Below the pieces are notes generated by a model. The model did not search any database, was not told the DNA's origin, and saw only the letters and a list, made by a program, of their open reading frames with translations. Made by a program: the position numbers and the translations under genes. This document shows positions 3,050 through 48,535 of a stretch of DNA of 64,000 nt, in pieces. Every line of letters starts with the position of its first letter. Position 1 is the first letter of the stretch. The stretch lies in assembly GCA_902826775.1 (NCBI GenBank), contig CADEHE010000007.1:124001-188000 (forward strand). Direction: 5' to 3'. This DNA comes from an uncultured Pseudomonadota bacterium (GTDB taxonomy: Bacteria > Pseudomonadota > Gammaproteobacteria > Burkholderiales > JALYOK01).

Positions 3050-4126
3050 ATGCTGTCGATTCACAACGCACGACGTAGCGCCGTAGCAACATGCGCGTTC
3101 GCGCTGTTACTCCCGTTGACGAGCGCGCTCGCCCTAGCGCAATCCGCACTGAAGACGGCGCCAGCGACGCTGCGCGAAGTCGATCAGACTTACGTCGCCG
3201 AAGGTGTGGTCGAGGCAGTACGGCAATCGACCGTGGCGGCGCAGATCTCCGGGCGCATCGTGCAGATCAATTTCGACGTCGGCGACAGCGTGCGGCAGGG
3301 CGAAGTGATCGTGCGCATCGACGAGCGCGAAGTCAGTCAGGCGCTCGCCGGCACGCAGGCACAAGTCGCGCAGGCACAGGCCAATCTGGCGCAAGCCAAG
3401 GCCAACTACGAACGCCAGCGGCTGTTGCTGGCGCAGAAATTCATCTCTCAGGCAGCCATGGACAAGGCCGCCGCCGACTACAAGGCGGCGCAGGCGCAGG
3501 TGGCCGCGATGCTCGCCAGCGCCGGGCAAGCCGCTACCGCGAAGACCTATGCAGCGGTGGTCGCGCCGTACAGCGGCGTGGTATCCGCGCGCCATGTGGA
3601 ACTGGGCGAGACGGTAGCGCCAGGCACACCGCTGATGACCGGCTTCGATCCGGGCGGCTTGCGCGTGGTCGCCAACATCCCGCAATACAAGCTGGGCGCG
3701 ATCACGGACAAGAGCCAAGCCAGCGTCGAGTTGCCGGCGTTCAACCTGTGGACCAAAGCGAAGTCGGTCATCGTGTTGCCGATCTCCGATCCGCACACGC
3801 TCTCCACCAAGGCGCGGCTTGATTTGGCGGGAGATTTGCAGGGCATTGTCCCCGGCATGTTTGCGCGCGTGCATTTCGTGGTGGGTCGCGCGACCAAACT
3901 GGTGGTGCCGGCCGAAGCGATCGTGCGGCGCAGTGAGGTGACGGCGGTGTACGTGATTAACGCGCAGGGCGCGATCGGCTTGCGCCAAGTGCGCCTGGGG
4001 GACGCGGCGGGCAAAGATGGCGTCGAAGTCCTGGCAGGACTGAAACCCGGCGAGCAAGTGGCGCTAGAGCCGATCAAGGCCGGGATGATGCTGAAACAGC
4101 GTATGGAGTCAGGAGTATTGCTCTGA
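3050..4126 (+). CDS. RND efflux periplasmic adaptor (membrane fusion protein, HlyD/AcrA type)
   Basis: A 358-residue protein with an N-terminal signal peptide (about residues 1-30). A lipoyl-like half-motif around 55-90 (SGRIVQINFDVGDSV) is followed by an alpha-helical coiled-coil hairpin rich in Ala/Gln (about 92-150), the second lipoyl half (APYSGVVSARHVELGETV) and a beta-barrel/membrane-proximal region ending in AGLKPGEQVAL. Adaptors of this family bridge an inner-membrane RND pump to an outer-membrane channel. It is the first gene of an operon with the SQR-like flavoprotein, permease and DUF2892 gene. An ATG at 3041 is out of frame, so 3050 is the start. The ribosome site is weak. Confidence 0.85.
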   Translation: MLSIHNARRSAVATCAFALLLPLTSALALAQSALKTAPATLREVDQTYVAEGVVEAVRQSTVAAQISGRIVQINFDVGDSVRQGEVIVRIDEREVSQALAGTQAQVAQAQANLAQAKANYERQRLLLAQKFISQAAMDKAAADYKAAQAQVAAMLASAGQAATAKTYAAVVAPYSGVVSARHVELGETVAPGTPLMTGFDPGGLRVVANIPQYKLGAITDKSQASVELPAFNLWTKAKSVIVLPISDPHTLSTKARLDLAGDLQGIVPGMFARVHFVVGRATKLVVPAEAIVRRSEVTAVYVINAQGAIGLRQVRLGDAAGKDGVEVLAGLKPGEQVALEPIKAGMMLKQRMESGVLL

Positions 4127-35087: not shown

Positions 35088-35124
35088 TTGATAAGGGTTT
35101 ACAGTTGCGCTAAAGTGCAACTAT
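35088..35124 (+). promoter_or_regulatory. Promoter and ArsR-type operator A (arsR1-pbrT unit)
   Basis: -35 TTGATA (35088-35093), 17-bp spacer, -10 TAAAGT (35111-35116). The 24-bp inverted repeat ACAGTTGC - 8 nt - GCAACTAT (35101-35124) covers the -10. The repeat has one mismatch between arms. The same 8-8-8 architecture with the -10 at offset 10 recurs at 38322, 40341 and 46093. Confidence 0.75.
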
Positions 35125-35294: not shown

Positions 35295-35696
35295 ATGCAT
35301 TTAGTTACCGTCAAATCCGAAGAAGTCTTCCAGGCCCTTGCCGATCCCATTCGGCTTAGGATCCTGCGCCTCATGTCTCTGACCGGCGAGGAGTCCTGCC
35401 TTTGTGAGCTCGTCGATACATTGCACGAGCCCCAATACAAACTTTCCAAGCACCTAAAGATTTTGAAGCAGGCGGGGTTGCTCACTGCGGAAAAAGAGGG
35501 GCGCTTCATCTACCATCGCCTAGTCAAACAGCCCGCGTATCTCGAATCGATCTACGAAGCGATTCGGGCCCTGCCCGACCCAGATCGCATCTTCAAGAAC
35601 GATCTGAAGCGTTTTCGCGCGCGAATGTGCTTGCGCGAAGACGGGCGTTGCCGCGTGGGAATACAAACCCGCGAACTCGCAACCGCGAGCGAGTAA
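35295..35696 (+). CDS. ArsR/SmtB-family metal-responsive repressor, copy 1
   Basis: 133 residues. Winged helix with the recognition helix around YKLSKHLKILKQAGLL. Two cysteines in an ArsR-like alpha-3 position (C35, C37: ESCLCELV) and two near the C-terminus (C112, C119). These can form a Cd/Pb/As-type thiolate site. The 402-bp coding sequence is identical by eye to copy 3 (47721-48122). It has its own promoter with the operator at 35101. The ATPase start codon that follows overlaps its stop (TAATG). Confidence 0.9.
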   Translation: MHLVTVKSEEVFQALADPIRLRILRLMSLTGEESCLCELVDTLHEPQYKLSKHLKILKQAGLLTAEKEGRFIYHRLVKQPAYLESIYEAIRALPDPDRIFKNDLKRFRARMCLREDGRCRVGIQTRELATASE

Positions 35697-36001: not shown

Positions 36002-37945
36002 ATGTCGCTCACACTTCATGTTCTAGCCATGGTGCTGCTTGGGGCCGGTGCGCCGCTGGGCGCGTCGGCCTCCGCACAGCCGCCAGCAGATACCGCCGCC
36101 AAGGCCAAGCAGGTTTGGCAGCTGCTTGACTACGTGGCCGTCGACTATGTTGGTGCAGTCTCGCAGGGGGCAGTGCTCAAGGAATCCGAGTACGCGGAGA
36201 TGCAGGAGTTCGCGGCCACTGCACGACGCCAGCTCGGGGAGCTTCCGAGGGGTGATGCCTCCGCCAGCCTGCAGCGCGAAGCCGCGCAACTGCAGGCCTC
36301 GGTCGCCGCCAAGGCCGATCCCGCCGTCGTGGTCAAACAGGCGCAGCAGCTCGCGGCGGATGTGCTGAAGGGCTATCCGTTTCCCGTCGCACCGAGCGCC
36401 GCTCCTGACCTCGCGAAGGGAGCGAGCCTGTTCCAGGCGCAATGCGTCGGCTGCCACGGCACCCGGGGACATGGCGATGGCCCGCTGGCCGCCACACTGG
36501 AACCGAAGCCCACGGCCTTGTCGGAGCCCGGCCGGGCGCGCGAGCGCACGCTGTTCGCGCTGCATCAAATCATCAGCAATGGTGTCAACGGCACGGCTAT
36601 GGCGAGCTTCGCCTCACTGCCCGAGCAGGATCGCTGGGCGCTCGCGTTCTTCGTCGGCACCCTGCCGTACTCGCAGGACGACAAGCTCGCCGGTGAGAAG
36701 CTGTGGCACTCCAATGCGGACCTTCGCCAGGCGATTCCCAGCCTCGATGCGCTGACCCAAACCTCCGAGCACGCGCTCGCCGAGCGCTCGGACGAGGCTT
36801 CCGCGAAGGCGGTGACCGCCTATCTGCGCAGCCATCCGCAGGCGCTTGGCGCCGCCACCATCGGCGGCACCGGTGTCGCCAAGGCCAAGCTAAAGGAGAG
36901 CCTGGCGCTCGTCGAACACGGCGACCGAATGGCGGCGAAGCAGCTCGCGCTGTCGGCCTACCTCGATGGCTTCGAGCCGGTGGAGCCGGCGCTGGCCACA
37001 CGTGACCGGGCGCTGTTCGAGAAGATTGAGGCCGGCATGGTGGCTTACCGCGCCGCCATCGGCAGCGCGAGCCTCGACGCGCTGCGCTCGTCGGAGCAGG
37101 GGCTGCAGAAGTTGCTCGACGAGGCCGACGCCGCACTCGCCCCGTCGGCAAACGATGCCGCCGCGGCCTTCGTTGGCGCGCTGACCATCTTGCTGCGCGA
37201 AGGCCTGGAGGCGCTGCTCGTACTGGTGGCGATGGTTGCATTCCTAAAGAAGGCCGAGCGGCGCGACGTGCTCGTCTATGTACACGCGGGCTGGATCCTT
37301 GCGCTGGCCGCCGGCGGCGTGACCTGGGCCGTGGCGACCTACCTGGTCGTCGTCAGCGGCGCGAGCCGCGAACTCACCGAAGCCTTCTCGTCGCTCTTCG
37401 CGGCGGTCGTACTGCTCGGCGTGGGCATGTGGATGCACCAGAAGAGCGTCGCCGGGCGCTGGCAGGTGTACCTGAAGGAGAAGCTGTCGGCGGCATTGAA
37501 CAAGCGCACCGCGTGGTTCCTGTTCTCGCTGGCCTTCATCGCGGTCTATCGCGAAGTCTTCGAGACGGTGCTGTTCTACGCGGCGTTGTGGACCGAAGGT
37601 AACGGGTGGCCACTGCTCGCCGGCTTGGGCACGGGGGTGGCGCTGCTGGGCATCCTCGCTATCGTGCTTGTACGCACCAGCACCCGGCTGCCGATCCGCC
37701 AATTCTTCGCGGCAAGCTCGCTGCTCGTCGCCGTGCTGGCCGTCGTGCTCGCGGGCAAGGGCATCGCCGGGCTTCAGGAGGCGGGCTTGCTCGCCACCAG
37801 CCCGATCGCCATCCCGCGCATCGACATCCTAGGTATTTACCCGTCCTGGCAGACGTTGTTGGGGCAAGTGTCGGTGCTGTTAGCGGTCGTGGTCGCGTTC
37901 GTGTTCAACATTCGCTCCGCACGGATTGCAACAAAGAACGCCTGA
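36002..37945 (+). CDS. PbrT-like FTR1-family permease with cytochrome c domain
   Basis: 647 residues from ATG 36002; the frame also allows TTG 35984. A signal sequence is followed by a periplasmic cytochrome c domain (C148-VGC-H152) and a long helical region. The FTR1 permease domain has both iron-permease motifs, REGLE (399-403) and REVFE (517-521). This architecture is that of PbrT, the Pb(II)-uptake permease of pbr operons, and of related Fe transporters. It lies on the arsR1 transcript after the ATPase remnant. Confidence 0.85.
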   Translation: MSLTLHVLAMVLLGAGAPLGASASAQPPADTAAKAKQVWQLLDYVAVDYVGAVSQGAVLKESEYAEMQEFAATARRQLGELPRGDASASLQREAAQLQASVAAKADPAVVVKQAQQLAADVLKGYPFPVAPSAAPDLAKGASLFQAQCVGCHGTRGHGDGPLAATLEPKPTALSEPGRARERTLFALHQIISNGVNGTAMASFASLPEQDRWALAFFVGTLPYSQDDKLAGEKLWHSNADLRQAIPSLDALTQTSEHALAERSDEASAKAVTAYLRSHPQALGAATIGGTGVAKAKLKESLALVEHGDRMAAKQLALSAYLDGFEPVEPALATRDRALFEKIEAGMVAYRAAIGSASLDALRSSEQGLQKLLDEADAALAPSANDAAAAFVGALTILLREGLEALLVLVAMVAFLKKAERRDVLVYVHAGWILALAAGGVTWAVATYLVVVSGASRELTEAFSSLFAAVVLLGVGMWMHQKSVAGRWQVYLKEKLSAALNKRTAWFLFSLAFIAVYREVFETVLFYAALWTEGNGWPLLAGLGTGVALLGILAIVLVRTSTRLPIRQFFAASSLLVAVLAVVLAGKGIAGLQEAGLLATSPIAIPRIDILGIYPSWQTLLGQVSVLLAVVVAFVFNIRSARIATKNA

Positions 37946-38294
37946 GAACACCTCATCGAGGATTCTCAAAGGCTGTAGCCGCCAATCGGGCACAAGCGAC
38001 ATTTGCCAGGGCATCGCCTAACTCGGCGGACCCTGTCCCCGGACTTCCGAGCTGTGGCGACTCGCCGAATTTCCGCAGGAGAATTCCATGCCGGCACAAA
38101 AGGCCGGTGCTGACCGGCAGCTTGCCGACGACGACCTGGCGCGGAAGCGCCGCTCGCGCGCAAGCAACGCGCGATGTCGCTGAAAGCGTTGGCGGCGCGA
38201 CGTGCCCCTGCAACTCTTCGAGCCACAGGCCCAATCCGCAAGGGTTCAGAGCGTCCGCCCGTCGCTTCTTCCTGCAGGGACGACTGCGGAGCTT
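37946..38294. other. Intergenic region between pbrT-like gene and promoter B
   Basis: No gene I can support. A 31-codon frame from ATG 38089 (MPAQKAGADRQLADDDLARK...) has CAGGAG spaced 8 nt upstream, but I recognise no family. It could be the truncated start of a former gene. Confidence 0.35.
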
Positions 38295-38308
38295 TTGATC
38301 TAGGTCAA
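38295..38308 (+). promoter_or_regulatory. FNR-like box at promoter B
   Basis: TTGAT-CTAG-GTCAA differs from the FNR consensus at one base. Its centre (38301.5) lies about 42 bp upstream of the start point expected from the -10 TATATT at 38332-38337, i.e. the class II activator position. Promoter B has no good -35 hexamer, as expected for an activator-dependent promoter. Confidence 0.5.
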
Positions 38309-38321
38309 TATCGGTGTATGC

Positions 38322-38345
38322 ATAGTAGCGCTATATTGCAACTGT
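38322..38345 (+). promoter_or_regulatory. ArsR-type operator B
   Basis: ATAGTAGC - GCTATATT - GCAACTGT, the 8-8-8 repeat with two arm mismatches relative to site C. The -10 TATATT is at offset 10 inside it. Precedes the cytochrome c lipoprotein/SHOCT/Met-rich transcription unit. Confidence 0.65.
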
Positions 38346-38431
38346 TGCATTTACCTTGATCTGAATCGTGGAGCGTCAAAGCGTTCGATGCGCCCGTTAG
38401 ATGTACAGCACGCCCGTATCACGGAGGAAAG

Positions 38432-38938
38432 ATGAGAGAAGCCTTTAGATTACTCGCCGGCATCATCGCGTTAATGCTCCTTTCCGCGTGCGCCTATGAC
38501 GCATCGTACTGGCGCGGGACTGCTCAGAGTTCCACGGGCGCAGCAGCCGCGTCAGCCGTTGGCTCACCGCCGGGAACCGGTCCAGGGCCGTGGCGCGGTG
38601 GTCAATGGGGCTGCGACTGGCGAATGGGAGACCACATGTATCCCGGATGGATGGAAGGGATGATGATGGGTGGGCCGATGCCTCCAGCAGCCGATCCGGC
38701 GCAGTTGCCGGAGCGCGAATCGGCTGGCGCTGCCCTAGTGGGCCAGTATTGCACGCAGTGTCATGGCCTGCCGAGCCCCGGCCAGCACACCTCTGACGGA
38801 TGGCCTGCCGTTGTGTCGCGCATGAACGCTCGCATGCAATGGATGGCTACGCACAGCGCCATGGGAACTAAAGCACCCACCGAACCCGAGCTTCGGACCA
38901 TTGTGGCTTATCTGCAGCAGCACGCGACGAAACCATGA
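38432..38938 (+). CDS. Cytochrome c-type lipoprotein
   Basis: 168 residues with a lipobox (LLSAC, C20). A Gly/Met/Trp-rich middle (HMYPGWMEGMMMGGPM) is followed by a single haem motif, C107TQCH111. The C-terminal helix is RTIVAYLQQHA. GGAGGAAAG directly precedes the ATG. It is related to the C-terminal module of the protein at 21253-22068. A membrane-anchored periplasmic electron carrier or metal-binding haem protein is likely. Confidence 0.75.
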   Translation: MREAFRLLAGIIALMLLSACAYDASYWRGTAQSSTGAAAASAVGSPPGTGPGPWRGGQWGCDWRMGDHMYPGWMEGMMMGGPMPPAADPAQLPERESAGAALVGQYCTQCHGLPSPGQHTSDGWPAVVSRMNARMQWMATHSAMGTKAPTEPELRTIVAYLQQHATKP

Positions 38939-38999
38939 CGCCCTTTTTCTGCCCTCGGTTTGCAGAATTGCGCAGGTATCAGTCGGAGCCAGATCGCGA

Positions 39000-39254
39000 A
39001 TGAACGGCTGTTGGGATTGGTCAGGTTGGGGTTGGCATTGGTGGTGGTTGATTGGAACGGCGGTGTTCTGGATCCTACTAATCATTGTGGCGGTGATCGC
39101 TTTCGGGTACCTCGTGCGAAAGGCGGCGCCATCCAGCACCATCCCGAAAGGTTCGGCCAAGACCGCCTTGGACTATTTGGAGGAGGTCTACGCCAAAGGA
39201 GAGATAGGCCGGGAAGAGTTCTTGCAAAAGCGCGAGGACTTAAAGCGCAACTGA
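39000..39254 (+). CDS. Small membrane protein with SHOCT domain
   Basis: 84 residues. A Trp-rich N-terminus is followed by one TM helix and a C-terminal SHOCT motif (ALDYLEEVYAKGEIGREEF). SHOCT domains are short oligomerisation or electrostatics-related C-terminal modules common in small membrane proteins. GGAG lies about 10 nt upstream of the ATG. Between the cytochrome lipoprotein and the Met-rich protein on one transcript. Confidence 0.72.
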   Translation: MNGCWDWSGWGWHWWWLIGTAVFWILLIIVAVIAFGYLVRKAAPSSTIPKGSAKTALDYLEEVYAKGEIGREEFLQKREDLKRN

Positions 39255-39308
39255 TCGGCTTTCCCGGGCTATCACAACGTGTGTTTGTAACCCTATAGGA
39301 GAAACGAC

Positions 39309-39812
39309 ATGAAAACGACGATCTTGACGGCCGCGTTGTCCACGGCTGTGTTTTTGGCCATGCCCGCTCTGGCCCAGCAAGCAACGCCCCCTGACAAAGG
39401 CGCCGAGGCCAAGTCGGCGGCGCCCAATGTCACCGAGTTCGACAAGCAGATGACACAAGCGCAGGAAAACATGAAGAAGATGCAGGAACAAATGGACAAG
39501 ATCCGCCAGACCCAGGATCCACAAGAGCGGCAAAGATTGCTGCAAGAACACTGGGCGAGCATGCAGAACAATATGCAAATGATGCACGGTATGTGGGGCC
39601 CGGGAATGATGGGCTGCTGCGGTGGCCCGATGATGGGAGGGCATATGATGGACGGGCCAATGATGGGCTGGCGCGGAATGAGCAGGCACTACTCCAAGCT
39701 CACGCCGGAGCAGATGAAACAGCACCAATACATGATGGATCAATACATGGGTATGCAGCAGATGATGATGGACCACATGATGCAGCACCAGCAGTACATG
39801 TGGGGGCGCTGA
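39309..39812 (+). CDS. Met-rich periplasmic protein, probable copper/metal binder
   Basis: 167 residues with a signal peptide (ends PALA). A coiled-coil stretch (TQAQENMKKMQEQMDKI) leads into QRLLQEHWASMQNNMQMMHG and a Met/Gly/Cys-rich zone (GMMGCCGGPMMGG), then a Met/His-rich tail. The EHW unit is the same as in the 21253 protein. AGGAG lies 8 nt before the ATG. Met/His clusters favour Cu(I)/Ag(I) but could bind other soft metals. Confidence 0.7.
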   Translation: MKTTILTAALSTAVFLAMPALAQQATPPDKGAEAKSAAPNVTEFDKQMTQAQENMKKMQEQMDKIRQTQDPQERQRLLQEHWASMQNNMQMMHGMWGPGMMGCCGGPMMGGHMMDGPMMGWRGMSRHYSKLTPEQMKQHQYMMDQYMGMQQMMMDHMMQHQQYMWGR

Positions 39813-39814
39813 GC

Positions 39815-40187
39815 TGGGGGTCGGATTGTCTTCTTGCCAGCTCCGTGCGCAACAGGTCGGCGGGACCTAGCAACATGCGCTTGTAGAATTTTGGTGTCTC
39901 GGTGACCACGGTTTGTTAGTGCTTCGCGACGTTGCGACGCGGCTGTAGGCATCGCGCACCTCGGAGCGCATGTCGATCGCAGCCGCTTCGAGCTTGCGCT
40001 CCGTTTAGCGCACCTGTGATGCCAGGCCCGCGATGGTGGGTGGTATGGAGGCCGCAGTAGTTTGCGGGTTGGCCGGATGGTTCGCCGCGAGCGGCGGAGC
40101 GGAAGTAGCAGAGGCAGCAGAGGCGCAGCCAACGATCACCGGCCGCATCAATAGCCGCAGCACTCGTTTTGATTACGCGTGCTTCAT
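39815..40187 (-). pseudogene. Decayed TolC-family outer-membrane protein gene
   Basis: AAAGGA precedes ATG 40187, but codon 5 is a stop. Downstream, a signal-peptide-like stretch and MRSEVRDAYSRVATSR resemble the helical repeat of TolC-type channels. After another stop and a shift of frame, FYKRMLLGPADLLRTELARRQ continues the family pattern. Large parts are missing. Confidence 0.45.
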
Positions 40188-40326
40188 GACAGTCCTTTCT
40201 CGTGAACGAGACTAGTCAGTCACAAGGTTGCTGCTAACCTGCCGAGTCTCCATGAGCGTCGGCGATGCGCGGCGATCGCCTCAAAACACGACAGGCCCCG
40301 CCGATGATGATGTCTAGCAAAGATGC

Positions 40327-40364
40327 TTGCATGGTAGTTTATAGTTGCGTTATAGTGCAACTAT
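40327..40364 (+). promoter_or_regulatory. Promoter and ArsR-type operator C (best match)
   Basis: -35 TTGCAT (40327-40332), 18-bp spacer, -10 TATAGT (40351-40356). The perfect inverted repeat ATAGTTGC - GTTATAGT - GCAACTAT spans 40341-40364 and encloses the -10. It drives the beta-propeller, cytochrome b561, arsR2 and ATPase genes. Confidence 0.78.
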
Positions 40365-40464
40365 GCATCAATATGGGTTGGGTGCGAGACAGTCTTCGCT
40401 TCTCTGTAAGCCGACCCACTATTTCATAGCAAGCGCGTTGCCACTTCATTTGAGGAGTATTTCC

Positions 40465-41418
40465 ATGCGCTGGTTAAAGTCGTCTTGGTTTCCCACTGCG
40501 TTGCTTAGCCTTTTTTCAGCGGTAGCAAGCGCAGCGACCCCGCTGGCTTATGTACCAAACGAGAAGAGCGGGACGATTTCAGTAATCGACACGGCGAAGG
40601 ATGAAGTCATTGCCCAGATAAAGGCGAGGGAGAAACCGAGAGGTCTTGCGGTCAGCAGGGATGGCAAGTATCTGTACGTCAGTAACCAACCAGATAATTC
40701 ATTGGGGATAATTGACCTTGAAAAGGGCGCTGTCACCGACAAAATTGCACTAGGAGAATCTCCCGAGGGTGTGAGCATTTCTCCCGACGGCAAATGGGTA
40801 GTTGCGGCAGTCGAGATCACCAATAGCGTTACGTTCATCGACACTAGCACCAACCGGCGGGAGTTTAGCGTAAGAGTGCAAGGCAAGAACCCCGAACACG
40901 CAGTGTTTAGCCCCGACGGCAAATGGCTGTATGTGAGCGCGGAAGAGGCTGAACAAGTAGACGTGATCGATGTGGAAAAACGAGAGCAGGTTGCATCGAT
41001 CCCGGTAGGTCGGCGGCCCCGCGGAATTGGCTTTCTGCCGGATGGTAGCCGTGCCTATGTCGCCTGCGAGCTTGCTAGCACAATTTACGCAATCGATGTT
41101 CAGCAGCAAAAGGTAATCGCGACGATTAAGGGTGGAAATTTCTCCAACGGCGTCGCCATTCGTTCCGACGGCAAGCGGGTGTATGTCTCAAATGGCAAGG
41201 ATGGCACGGTGCTGGCCATCGATACTGCGGACAACAAGGTGATCGCAACGATTCCAGTGGGGCAGCGCCCGTGGAATATGGCGATTACCCCTGACGGCAA
41301 AAAACTCTACGTGGCAAACGGACGGTCCAACTCGGTTTCGGTGATCGATACCGAAACGAACCAAAAACTAAGCGATGTGCCGGTAGGCGAACTACCCTGG
41401 GGCGTCGTTATCCGCTAA
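40465..41418 (+). CDS. Secreted YVTN-type beta-propeller protein
   Basis: 317 residues from ATG 40465, with GAGGAG spaced 8 nt upstream (the frame continues upstream without signal character). Signal peptide to about residue 23. Then about seven 40-residue repeats of the type SPDGKWLYVS / VIDVEKREQVASIPVGRRPRG. Periplasmic YVTN propellers are seen with nitrite/haem and metal systems. A function in binding or electron transfer is possible but unproven. Confidence 0.8.
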   Translation: MRWLKSSWFPTALLSLFSAVASAATPLAYVPNEKSGTISVIDTAKDEVIAQIKAREKPRGLAVSRDGKYLYVSNQPDNSLGIIDLEKGAVTDKIALGESPEGVSISPDGKWVVAAVEITNSVTFIDTSTNRREFSVRVQGKNPEHAVFSPDGKWLYVSAEEAEQVDVIDVEKREQVASIPVGRRPRGIGFLPDGSRAYVACELASTIYAIDVQQQKVIATIKGGNFSNGVAIRSDGKRVYVSNGKDGTVLAIDTADNKVIATIPVGQRPWNMAITPDGKKLYVANGRSNSVSVIDTETNQKLSDVPVGELPWGVVIR

Positions 41419-42047: not shown

Positions 42048-42449
42048 ATGCATCTGGTTACCGTTGAACCCGAAGAAGTCTTCCAGGCCCTTGCCGATCC
42101 CATTCGGCTTAGAATCGTGCGCCTCATGTCTCTGACCGACGAGGAGTCCTGTCTTTGTGAACTCGTCGACACGTTGCACGAGCCGCAGTACAAGCTTTCT
42201 AAACACTTGAAGATACTAAAGCAGGCGGGATTGCTGAGCACGCAAAAAGAGGGGCGCTTCATCTACCATCGCCTAGTCAAACAGCCCGCGTATCTCGAAT
42301 CGATCTACGAAGCGATTCGGGCCCTGCCCGACCCAGATCGCATCTTCAAGAACGATCTGAAGCGTTTTCGCGCGCGAATGTGCTTGCGCGAAGACGGGCG
42401 TTGCCGCGTGGGAATACAAACCCGCGAACTCGCAACCGCGAGCGAGTAA
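42048..42449 (+). CDS. ArsR/SmtB-family repressor, copy 2
   Basis: 133 residues with the same C35/C37/C112/C119 set as copies 1 and 3. About 28 base differences from copy 1 fall in the first about 205 nt. From about 42244 to the stop and on to about 42502 it is identical to copy 1. No operator directly upstream, so it is likely driven from promoter C. Its stop overlaps the ATPase start (TAATG). Confidence 0.9.
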   Translation: MHLVTVEPEEVFQALADPIRLRIVRLMSLTDEESCLCELVDTLHEPQYKLSKHLKILKQAGLLSTQKEGRFIYHRLVKQPAYLESIYEAIRALPDPDRIFKNDLKRFRARMCLREDGRCRVGIQTRELATASE

Positions 42450-44359
42450 TGACCGCCGCAAGCGCGGTGGCGGTCCGCGCTCCTGCGCCGCGTCCCTGGC
42501 GCAATGCGCGTGTGGCCAGCGCGGCCTGCTCCGGTTTGCTCCTTCTCTCGGGATTTGTCGGCGCCGCAGCAGGTGCGCCGCTTTCGCTTGAGACCCCACT
42601 CTATATTCTCGCGGTCATCATCGGGGGTTATTTCTTCGCGCGGGAGGCGCTCGAAGCGCTCATCAGGGAGCACGAGGTCGGCATCGAGTTCCTGATGACT
42701 ACCGCAGCTATTGTTGCGGGGCTCCTGGGGCAGTGGCTGGAGTCCGCGATCCTCGTCTTCCTCTATTCGCTCTCCGAGGCAGCGGAGCAATACACTGGTG
42801 AACGCGCCCGGCTTGCGGTCCGCGCCCTTATGAAGCTAGCGCCCAAGACTGCGCTGGTTCGCCGCGATGAGCAGGAGTTTCGCGTCGCGGTCGAGCAGCT
42901 CCACATCGGCGACGTATTCATCGTGCTGCCTGGCGAGTCAGTCGCCACCGATGGAGAGGTGTTGGAAGGCCGATCTAGCGTTAATCAAGCGCCGGTCACG
43001 GGCGAGTCGATACCGGTGGAGAAACTGCCCGGGCAGAAAGTCTTTGCAGCAACGCTCAATGGCGAGGGCGCGCTCACGGTACGCGCCACTAAGACCTTTG
43101 CTGACAACACGCTTGCGCGCATCATCCACTTGGTCCAAGAAGCCCAAGCGAGCAAAGGGCAGAGCCAGCGCTTCATCGAGCGCTTCGGCAAGCGCTATAG
43201 CCCGATCGTGCTTGCCGTGGGTGGGTTGCTTGCGCTCATTGCGCCGCTGTTCGGATTGCCCTGGCAGGAGGGGCTCACGCGCGCGACCGTCTTCATTGTC
43301 GCCGCCGCGCCGTGCGCCCTCGTCATTTCTATTCCGATTACGCTCGTGGCTGCCTTGGGCACCGCCGGACGCTCTGGCGTGCTCATCAAGGGCGGAGTAC
43401 ATCTAGAAAACCTCGCCCGCATCAAAGTGGTTGCGCTCGACAAGACCGGAACGCTTACGATCGGAAAACCCAAGGTTACCCATGTCGTTCCCCTCTACGG
43501 GCACTCGGAGCGCCGGTTGCTTGCGGTGGCTGCCGCTCTAGAAGCAAGGTCGCAGCACCCGCTGGCTCACGCTATCGTGGATGAGGCAAAGGCGGCTGGA
43601 GTCGAGTTATTGCCGGTAGCGGACTTTGTGTCGCTGACGGGTGCCGGGGTTCAAGGGCGAATTGATCAGGCGCTCTTCTACATCGGGAGCCCCAAGCTCT
43701 TCGTCACCTTAGGACTGACCCCTCCCGACGCGACGCCGGTAGTCGCAGAGCTCCAAGAACAGGGAAATACCGTCGTGCTGGTGGGCAACAGGAGCGAGTA
43801 CCTGGGCCTGATCGCGATCGCCGATCCCTTGCGTCCGCAAGCCGCTGAGACCGTTGCTGAACTAAAGCGCGCCGGCATTGCTCATGTGATCATGCTAACG
43901 GGTGATAACCCTGCTACCGCAAACGCCATCGCGATAGCGGCCGGGATAGACGAAGTTCACGCTGGACTCTCGCCAGAGCAGAAGGCGAGCGCGGTGAAAG
44001 CACTCGAACCGCGTTACGGCAAAGTCGCAATGGTAGGCGATGGGGTAAACGATGCGCCTGCGCTTGCGGCAGCGCACGTCGGCGTGGCCATGGGTGCAGC
44101 CGGGACCGATGTGGCCTTGGAAACAGCAGATGTGGCGCTCATGGCTGACGATCTATCCCGCCTTGCGTTTCTCATTCGGTTCGCTCGGCGTACGCGGGGC
44201 GTGATTCTGCAAAACGTTGCATTGTCCGCGGTAGTCATCGGCATCCTGGTCGTCGGAGCAATCGGCGGCTATTTCACCTTAACCACCGCGATCATTGCCC
44301 ATGAGATCAGCGAGTTCATTGTTATTGCCAGCGGGCTGCGCATGCTTCGAACAGACTAG
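42449..44359 (+). CDS. P1B-type ATPase with APC motif and no N-terminal metal-binding domain
   Basis: 636 residues from ATG 42449. No HMA domain. TM metal motif is A287-P-C289 instead of CPC. D331KTGT phosphorylation site, QHPLA, GDGVNDAPALA all intact. Last TM has H618EISEF, similar to the HEG(S/G)-type signature of P1B-4 pumps (Co, Zn, Cd, Fe). Predicted metal export coupled to ATP. The cation is not certain. It is the only complete member of the three arsR-ATPase cassettes. Confidence 0.88.
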   Translation: MTAASAVAVRAPAPRPWRNARVASAACSGLLLLSGFVGAAAGAPLSLETPLYILAVIIGGYFFAREALEALIREHEVGIEFLMTTAAIVAGLLGQWLESAILVFLYSLSEAAEQYTGERARLAVRALMKLAPKTALVRRDEQEFRVAVEQLHIGDVFIVLPGESVATDGEVLEGRSSVNQAPVTGESIPVEKLPGQKVFAATLNGEGALTVRATKTFADNTLARIIHLVQEAQASKGQSQRFIERFGKRYSPIVLAVGGLLALIAPLFGLPWQEGLTRATVFIVAAAPCALVISIPITLVAALGTAGRSGVLIKGGVHLENLARIKVVALDKTGTLTIGKPKVTHVVPLYGHSERRLLAVAAALEARSQHPLAHAIVDEAKAAGVELLPVADFVSLTGAGVQGRIDQALFYIGSPKLFVTLGLTPPDATPVVAELQEQGNTVVLVGNRSEYLGLIAIADPLRPQAAETVAELKRAGIAHVIMLTGDNPATANAIAIAAGIDEVHAGLSPEQKASAVKALEPRYGKVAMVGDGVNDAPALAAAHVGVAMGAAGTDVALETADVALMADDLSRLAFLIRFARRTRGVILQNVALSAVVIGILVVGAIGGYFTLTTAIIAHEISEFIVIASGLRMLRTD

Positions 44360-46081: not shown

Positions 46082-46116
46082 TTGTCACATGCATAGTTGT
46101 ACTATAATGCAACTAT
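46082..46116 (+). promoter_or_regulatory. Promoter and ArsR-type operator D
   Basis: Possible -35 TTGTCA (46082-46087), short 15-bp spacer, -10 TATAAT (46103-46108). The repeat ATAGTTGT - ACTATAAT - GCAACTAT spans 46093-46116 with one arm mismatch and the -10 at the same offset as in A-C. It precedes the binding protein, arsR3 and the kinase genes. Confidence 0.72.
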
Positions 46117-46274
46117 GGCTATGTTGCAACGGGTGCTTTCGTGACAGCGATCGTCTCATGCCGGTTGTAACCCGCCTCCGAACCTAGGCACATTGCAAAG
46201 TGCTCGAGCCAAGGGTCATCAATTGACAACCGACGCCGATCCATAGCGATACCCATGAAGAACAGGAGCAGGCC

Positions 46275-47513
46275 ATGATAAAACCCTCCGCGGTTGAGTG
46301 CTGGCGATACGCGCTATGTGTCGTGATGATCACTTCTCTTGGCCTAGGTGCACGAGCATCTCTGGCTGCATCGAACGCCGAAACGATGGACCTCATCAAG
46401 ATTGGGGTCTTAACGGAACGCAGCGATGGAGAGGGCGGTGGCGCATCCCCCTCAGTGGTCGCCGCAGAAATGGCCATTGAGGAAGTTGGCGGCAACGTCG
46501 CGGGCAGAGCCGTTAGTCTCGTGGCCGCGGCGCACGGCAACGACGTTTCGGCGGCACAGACCATTGTCGAGACCTGGATTGACAAAGAGGGCGTGACGAT
46601 GATTACCGGTATCCCGCATTGGGGAGTCGCGTTGGAAGTTGCCGCCTTGGCCAAGCGCAAAGATCGGATTGCCATCGTTATCAATGCGCCGACCCAAGCC
46701 CTAACCAATGTTCAGTGCAATATGACTACGTTTCACTATGCGTATGACACCTACGCTTTGCATAAAGTCGTTGCTACTGCTGCGGTTAAGCAAGGTTATG
46801 AGACATGGTTCTTCTTAACACTTGAAAACTCTTTTGGTCGTCAACTTGAGAAGAGCGCCTCTGACTTCGTAGTCGCCGCCGGTGGACACGTAGTAGGTAC
46901 GGCAGCGATTCCCACTTCCGAGACCGACTTCTCGCGCTATATCGAGGCGGCTAAAGCCTCTTCCGCTAAGGTTATCGCAGTAGCAGCGGCCGATCGATTT
47001 GCTTTTCCGATTATTCTGGCATTGCTGAAATCCGGACTCCCTGAAAGTAAGAGACTGGCTGCATTGCTAATGTCTCCGGACGATGTCGAGAAGTTAGGGT
47101 TCGCGGCATTACCGAAAGTGTTACTTGCAGTGGGCTTTGATCCAACTCGCTCGGAGCAAGCGCGCGTATGGTCACGCCGCTTCGTCGAGAGAACAGGGCG
47201 TGTGCCGAGTGCAATCGACGCAGGGGTGTATTCTGCGGTAAGACACTATCTGGGAGCGGTTGCGGCGGCTGGAACAACGGAAGCTCAACCGGTGGCGGGC
47301 AAAATGAAGGAGCTGCCCATCAACGATAGCTTTACGTCTCAGGGGCGGATTCGCGAGGACGGCCGCATGGTGCACGAGATGTACCTGGCCGAGGTCAAAC
47401 CCGCATCCGAGTCTCGAGGGCCGGGCGACTTCTACCGCATCCTGGCGACGGTGCCGGGCGAAGAGGCATTTCAGCCTCTTGAAGAAAGTACGTGCCCATT
47501 GATCAAGAAATGA
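46275..47513 (+). CDS. ABC-type periplasmic binding protein (branched-chain amino acid/urea receptor family)
   Basis: 412 residues with a signal peptide (to about residue 32). The family pattern is seen in IKIGVLTERSDGEGGG, AAEMAIEEVGG, the central THHYAYDTYALHK-like region (TTFHYAYDTYALHKV) and the second lobe AAKASSAKVIAVAAADR. No permease or ATP-binding genes are near. GAGCAGG precedes the ATG. Its place behind an ArsR operator is unusual: it may act as a sensor or metal/ligand binder rather than a transporter part. Confidence 0.8.
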   Translation: MIKPSAVECWRYALCVVMITSLGLGARASLAASNAETMDLIKIGVLTERSDGEGGGASPSVVAAEMAIEEVGGNVAGRAVSLVAAAHGNDVSAAQTIVETWIDKEGVTMITGIPHWGVALEVAALAKRKDRIAIVINAPTQALTNVQCNMTTFHYAYDTYALHKVVATAAVKQGYETWFFLTLENSFGRQLEKSASDFVVAAGGHVVGTAAIPTSETDFSRYIEAAKASSAKVIAVAAADRFAFPIILALLKSGLPESKRLAALLMSPDDVEKLGFAALPKVLLAVGFDPTRSEQARVWSRRFVERTGRVPSAIDAGVYSAVRHYLGAVAAAGTTEAQPVAGKMKELPINDSFTSQGRIREDGRMVHEMYLAEVKPASESRGPGDFYRILATVPGEEAFQPLEESTCPLIKK

Positions 47514-47720: not shown

Positions 47721-48122
47721 ATGCATTTAGTTACCGTCAAATCCGAAGAAGTCTTCCAGGCCCTTGCCGATCCCATTCGGCTTAGGATCCTGCGCCTCAT
47801 GTCTCTGACCGGCGAGGAGTCCTGCCTTTGTGAGCTCGTCGATACATTGCACGAGCCCCAATACAAACTTTCCAAGCACCTAAAGATTTTGAAGCAGGCG
47901 GGGTTGCTCACTGCGGAAAAAGAGGGGCGCTTCATCTACCATCGCCTAGTCAAACAGCCCGCGTATCTCGAATCGATCTACGAAGCGATTCGGGCCCTGC
48001 CCGACCCAGATCGCATCTTCAAGAACGATCTGAAGCGTTTTCGCGCGCGAATGTGCTTGCGCGAAGACGGGCGTTGCCGCGTGGGAATACAAACCCGCGA
48101 ACTCGCAACCGCGAGCGAGTAA
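47721..48122 (+). CDS. ArsR/SmtB-family repressor, copy 3
   Basis: 133 residues. The 402-bp gene is identical by eye to copy 1 while the upstream flank differs right up to the ATG. No operator directly upstream, so it is probably transcribed from promoter D through the binding-protein gene. The following ATPase start overlaps its stop. Confidence 0.9.
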   Translation: MHLVTVKSEEVFQALADPIRLRILRLMSLTGEESCLCELVDTLHEPQYKLSKHLKILKQAGLLTAEKEGRFIYHRLVKQPAYLESIYEAIRALPDPDRIFKNDLKRFRARMCLREDGRCRVGIQTRELATASE

Positions 48123-48535
48123 TGACCGCCGCAAGCGCGGTGGCGGTGCGCGCTCCTGCGCCGCGTCCCTGGCGCAATGCGCGTGTGGCCAGTGCGGCCT
48201 TCTCCGCGTTGCTTCTCGTCGCGGGATTAGTCGGCGCCGCAGCGGAGCGAGTACCTGGGCCTGATCGCGATCACCGATCCCTTGCGTCCGCATGCTGCTG
48301 AGAGCGTTGCTGAGCTAAAGCGCGCCGGCATTGGTCATGTGATCATGCTAACGGGTGACAACTGTGCCACCGCAAACGCCATCGCGATAGCGGCCGGGAT
48401 AGACGAAGTTCACGCTGGACTTTCGCCAGAGCAGAAGGCGAGCGCGGTGAAAGCACTCGAACCGCGTTACGGCAAAGTCGCAATGGTAGGTGATGGGGTA
48501 AACGATGCGCCGACAGCGTCCGCACCGGTGTCGTT
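48122..48535 (+). pseudogene. P1B ATPase with large internal deletion (after arsR3)
   Basis: The first about 40 codons match the ATPase at 42449. After GLVGAAA the sequence jumps to the part for SEYLGLIAI (about residue 450 of the intact copy). It then follows the intact gene closely through MLTGDN and MVGDGVNDAP before diverging. The junction shifts the frame. The TM metal site and the DKTGT site are gone, so no pump can be made. Confidence 0.85.

Follow-up and report, generated by a model that had tools for sequence, protein, structure and literature searches.

How is a promoter controlled that lies in a heavy-metal resistance cluster, combines an apparent FNR box with an apparent ArsR operator and lacks a recognizable -35 element? 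The promoter at position 38322 of the window (the whole 64,000-nucleotide stretch of DNA analysed here) raises this question. It precedes a set of three genes, and the relevant features are as follows.

38295..38308, plus strand: FNR/ANR box TTGATCTAGGTCAA, an exact match to TTGATNNNNRTCAA, centred at -42.5 from the predicted start
38322..38345, plus strand: ArsR operator, a 24-bp imperfect palindrome ATAGTAGCGCTATATTGCAACTGT over the -10 and the predicted start
38332..38337, plus strand: predicted -10 TATATT inside the operator, in the register of the central TATA hexamer of 13 sibling promoters
38356..38369, plus strand: second, imperfect FNR-like box TTGATCTGAATCGT with 2 mismatches, at about +19 from the predicted start
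38432..38938, plus strand: lipoprotein with a cytochrome c domain (lipobox LLSAC, haem motif CTQCH)
39000..39254, plus strand: SHOCT-type small membrane protein
39309..39812, plus strand: secreted Met-rich protein with a signal peptide

The segment 38293-38345, read directly, is TTTTGATCTAGGTCAATATCGGTGTATGCATAGTAGCGCTATATTGCAACTGT. The three genes are separated by gaps of about 60 and 54 bp and start 487 bp after the end of the FTR1 gene on the same strand, with a weak terminator-like hairpin (38272-38289) between the FTR1 and cytochrome c genes. The matches of the first two products to the Cytochrome_CBB3 (E 4e-5) and SHOCT (E 6e-4) profiles are both below the Pfam cut-offs.

The operator belongs to a small set of closely similar elements that accompany three arsR genes:

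35101..35124, plus strand: ArsR operator of the arsR1 transcript, with the -35 TTGATA
35295..35696, plus strand: arsR1 (HTH_5, E 5e-10; CxC and a C-terminal Cys)
40341..40364, plus strand: ArsR operator of the beta-propeller/b561/arsR2/ATPase transcript, with the -35 TTGCAT
42048..42449, plus strand: arsR2, upstream of an intact PIB-type ATPase gene
46093..46116, plus strand: ArsR operator, by motif match, upstream of a binding-protein gene and arsR3
47721..48122, plus strand: arsR3, identical to arsR1 at the DNA level

The sites at 38322, 35101, 40341 and 46093 share a 24-bp motif, ATAGTTGCGCTATAGTGCAACTAT. No other place in the genome matches it well, and the four lie within 11 kb of each other in this cluster. 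The 38322 site differs from the motif at three positions (21/24 kept), and no equally good match arose in 100 shuffles of the window. In each of the ten arsR orthologues checked, which come from other families of the class and show 56-68% identity, the same motif covers the promoter's own -10 and the start codon; this ties the palindrome to this ArsR subfamily. Judged by this conservation, the palindrome at 38322-38345 is the operator of the cluster's own ArsR. It is also the weakest of the 14 sites compared, scoring 29 bits where the 13 others score 36-44; two positions invariant in those others are changed (TTGC to TAGC, and a purine to T), and the right half-site TGCAAC is intact. Some basal leak is therefore expected, and repression at this operator may be leaky. 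The 46093 site adds an unexpected regulon member, a periplasmic binding protein gene (Peripla_BP_6) that follows the operator within 46093-47513, upstream of arsR3.

These repressors probably sense a divalent metal of soft or borderline character (Zn/Cd/Pb type), as suggested by the cotranscribed PIB ATPase and by the CDF, RND and FTR1 neighbours of orthologues. The orthologues are flanked by genes for PIB ATPases, DUF302 proteins, CDF transporters, FTR1 and an RND protein, which makes a divalent metal likely. All 12 aligned ArsR proteins contain CxC together with a C-terminal Cys in a GRC or GHC context. Arsenic is less likely, since the third cysteine of the As-site pattern in the alpha-3 motif is Val and divalent-cation transporters adjoin. 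The cluster's ArsR proteins did not reach the cut-offs of the NCBIfam equivalogs CmtR (31-32 of 150), BigR (31-37 of 155) or TsoR (36-39 of 115). ATPase sequence follows all three arsR copies, of which arsR2 is 93% identical to the other two. Only the copy behind arsR2 is intact; the piece at 48244-48511, 96% identical to 43791-44058, indicates that the module copies decayed. The intact ATPase (42449-44356) has APC in place of the usual CPC and no metal-binding domain at its N terminus, which makes its substrate class uncertain.

The core of the 38322 promoter sets it apart from its siblings, namely the promoters of the ten arsR orthologues and the three others of this cluster. In 13/13 of these, a TTG-starting -35 (3-5/6 to TTGACA) is located 15-18 bp upstream of the central TATA hexamer of the operator. 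At 38322, TATATT alone makes a good -10 at this spacing, which gives a predicted +1 at 38344, and no hexamer 15-19 bp upstream of it matches TTGACA at more than 2/6 positions. A search for a sigma-70-like promoter across 37900-40500 found none. Both the -10 and the predicted +1 fall inside 38322-38345, so the statement in the initial annotation that the ArsR palindrome covers the -10 holds, as does its remark that a good -35 is missing, which now applies to this promoter alone among the 14. This sole promoter without a -35 is the one with the FNR box, and we regard that coincidence of features as the strongest single argument for joint control by FNR and ArsR.

The box itself had been described as centred about 42 bp before the start, and the predicted +1 places its centre at -42.5, within the class II range of -41.5 +/- 4. 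In Escherichia coli, the box lies at -41.5 +/- 4 in 19 of the 23 promoters that FNR activates, and the FNR sites of ydhY and fnrS are at -42.5 (PMC3688515). The imperfect box at 38356-38369 may be a chance match. We took a census of boxes across the genome (5.4 Mb in 55 contigs) by pattern search and extracted stretches. The TTGATNNNNRTCAA pattern has 44 forward and 43 reverse matches, corresponding to 65 distinct places, and the reversed-pattern control has 2 and 4, which argues that most of these boxes are real. With a -10-like hexamer defined by A at position 2, T at position 6 and at least 4/6 identity to TATAAT, the 65 boxes with their flanks yield 12 hexamers at a gap of 21 bp, 15 at 22 bp, 3 at 23 bp (this site included), 5 at 24 bp and about 1.1 at other gaps. 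The peak at 21-22 bp is the class II FNR architecture of this genome. The gap at the 38295 box is 23 bp, one base beyond this mode and a spacing that is itself no more than weakly enriched.

Two of the encoded proteins have the CxxCx5C motif and distal Cys expected of an Fe-S FNR: L021 (C17, C20, C26, C119), which also matches solved FNR-type regulators, and L022 (C55, C58, C64, C156). Fnr is the best NCBIfam model for both (E 1e-57 and 1e-56), with scores below its cut-off. Other CRP/FNR paralogues, including L023, L024 and L025, lack the Fe-S cysteines.

Two other places with boxes were noted. About a dozen occur within a 50-kb stretch of contig C2 (L172-L174, G000:C2:28500-78300) among stress-type genes, an apparent anaerobic-stress island. 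Judged by eye, the genes around the boxes at 29-76 kb look like those for universal-stress proteins, Hsp20, a P-type ATPase and carbamate kinase, a setting that an anaerobic FNR/ANR regulon would be expected to have. In the window, a perfect box, TTGATCCCGATCAA, at 2976-2989 has TAACCT 22 bp downstream and precedes an HlyD/CusB-type membrane-fusion gene (3050-4126), possibly a second metal-efflux-type gene under FNR.

The box, the operator and the missing -35 together are best read as FNR activation combined with ArsR repression over the -10. Thus, as far as the sequence can tell, the genes for the cytochrome c lipoprotein, the SHOCT protein and the Met-rich protein are likely to have a class II promoter for FNR whose -10 is covered by an ArsR operator, giving AND-type output. 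At low oxygen, an Fe-S FNR dimer would recruit RNA polymerase and so stand in for the missing -35. As long as metal is absent, an ArsR dimer on the operator would block the -10, and binding of metal to the ArsR cysteines would free it, so that high output would be reached only when low oxygen and metal coincide. AND-type logic had been predicted for this promoter from the outset; the presence of both sites on one promoter now has strong comparative backing, and the AND output is what we infer as its most natural outcome.

Three other explanations have to be weighed. The arsR and ATPase genes were duplicated here and the ATPase copies decayed, and the operator, with two invariant positions lost and the lowest motif score of 14, might itself be a decayed copy that does not bind ArsR in vivo, leaving FNR in sole control of a promoter that descends from a duplicated arsR promoter. 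We consider this quite unlikely, given that 21/24 positions are kept, TGCAAC is intact and 100 shuffles produced no equal. The activator, in turn, might be a different CRP/FNR paralogue, such as a DNR- or FixK-like protein, and the first input would then be NO or some signal other than oxygen. The FNR box can also be recognized by DNR-type proteins, and two of the three paralogues L023, L024 and L025 have an E..SR recognition helix. However, the genome encodes two Fe-S FNR proteins, and the dozen or so boxes among universal-stress, Hsp20 and carbamate-kinase-like genes (again identified by eye) fit an anaerobic FNR/ANR regulon, which makes a different activator unlikely.

The FNR box, finally, might be coincidental, with the genes expressed from a weak ArsR-only promoter or by read-through from the arsR1-FTR1 transcript. 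The off-mode spacing between box and -10 would fit such a coincidence, and the position of the genes on the same strand behind FTR1 would permit read-through. But the weak terminator-like hairpin intervenes, the box falls at the sole promoter without a -35, and, by an estimate from the control density, only about 2e-5 exact boxes would be expected in a 5-position zone upstream of any of the four operators. We thus hold coincidence to be very unlikely and retain FNR activation with ArsR repression as the preferred reading.

Comparison with related loci suggests how the two controls came together. In a distant relative (G522, L161), a single operator is followed by arsR, ATPase, DUF302, cytochrome c and SHOCT genes and by a Met-rich gene unlike the one here. 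The cytochrome c frame of this relative is interrupted by an internal TAG and may be broken in the assembly. A Variovorax plasmid encodes a protein with partial similarity to the cytochrome c behind an FTR1 gene, next to cadR and together with a P-type ATPase. Relatives of the Met-rich protein occur on Cupriavidus, Thauera and Pseudomonas plasmids, the Thauera copy beside cadR and a P-type ATPase gene. The gene orders in G522 and Variovorax indicate that metal control of such genes has parallels. The plasmid relatives carry the Met-rich gene alone or a cytochrome c in MerR-type settings, and were set aside. Among 399 genomes of the order, the combination of FNR box and operator was found in one, the source genome itself, and in none of the 398 others; the set yielded no second, orthologous promoter that pairs the two sites, hence no phylogenetic footprint. 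The cytochrome c homologue loci L059-L064 (Thiobacillus and other MAGs) were rejected as a footprint, as the loci contained no FNR-type box at any position and the upstream sequences read contained no operator. An FNR-like TTGATAGAGATCAA in G638 (L160, 4389-4425) abuts the arsR operator; it was rejected as an FNR site because it overlaps the -35 (gap 9) and is absent from L170 of the same family, and is read as a -35 plus chance. By these comparisons, the predicted FNR control of the cytochrome c/SHOCT/Met-rich genes is a local addition. A plausible, if not quite probable, account is that a duplicated metal-resistance regulon was wired into the anaerobic network when an FNR class II box replaced the -35 of one ArsR promoter, creating an AND gate for the cytochrome c lipoprotein.

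On this account, a change at a single promoter could tie a metal-resistance regulon to respiration, and the sibling promoters of the same cluster are its natural controls. If the AND gate is true, the cytochrome c lipoprotein would be used only in metal-stressed, oxygen-limited cells, which suggests a role under these conditions for the poorly understood cytochrome c/SHOCT/Met-rich set. The ArsR operator is conserved in distant families of the class and so offers a means of mapping the regulon elsewhere.

Among known systems, feoABC of E. coli joins FNR activation at low oxygen to a metal-responsive repressor, Fur, as FNR and ArsR would be joined here, and its regulation by FNR is masked by Fur repression under iron-replete conditions (PMC3688515). 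The sign of the metal effect differs: Fur represses with metal present, whereas ArsR would release with metal, so that metal would induce. E. coli nikABCDE likewise combines activation by FNR with repression by NikR over the promoter; nickel is the corepressor and the genes serve uptake, unlike the metal induction proposed here. The arr arsenate-respiration operon of Shewanella sp. ANA-3, reportedly described by Murphy and Saltikov in 2009, is said to combine anaerobic expression with ArsR derepression by arsenite. With a different ArsR type and different genes, its likeness to the 38322 promoter is looser, and its anaerobic control reportedly involves cAMP-CRP rather than an FNR class II box. 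In gene content, the cluster resembles pbr/cad-type lead and cadmium clusters (PbrR/CadR, PbrT-like FTR1, P-type ATPase), in which FTR1, the ATPase and a cytochrome c-like protein occur together on the Variovorax plasmid and the Met-rich protein beside cadR on the Thauera plasmid; those clusters use a MerR-family activator, whereas the cluster described here has an ArsR repressor. Searches of the open literature turned up no metal-efflux promoter of the ArsR/SmtB type that also carries a class II site for FNR, which is weak evidence of absence. The pairing of FNR with a metal-responsive repressor is thus already known, and what is new is the combination of familiar parts at the 38322 promoter.
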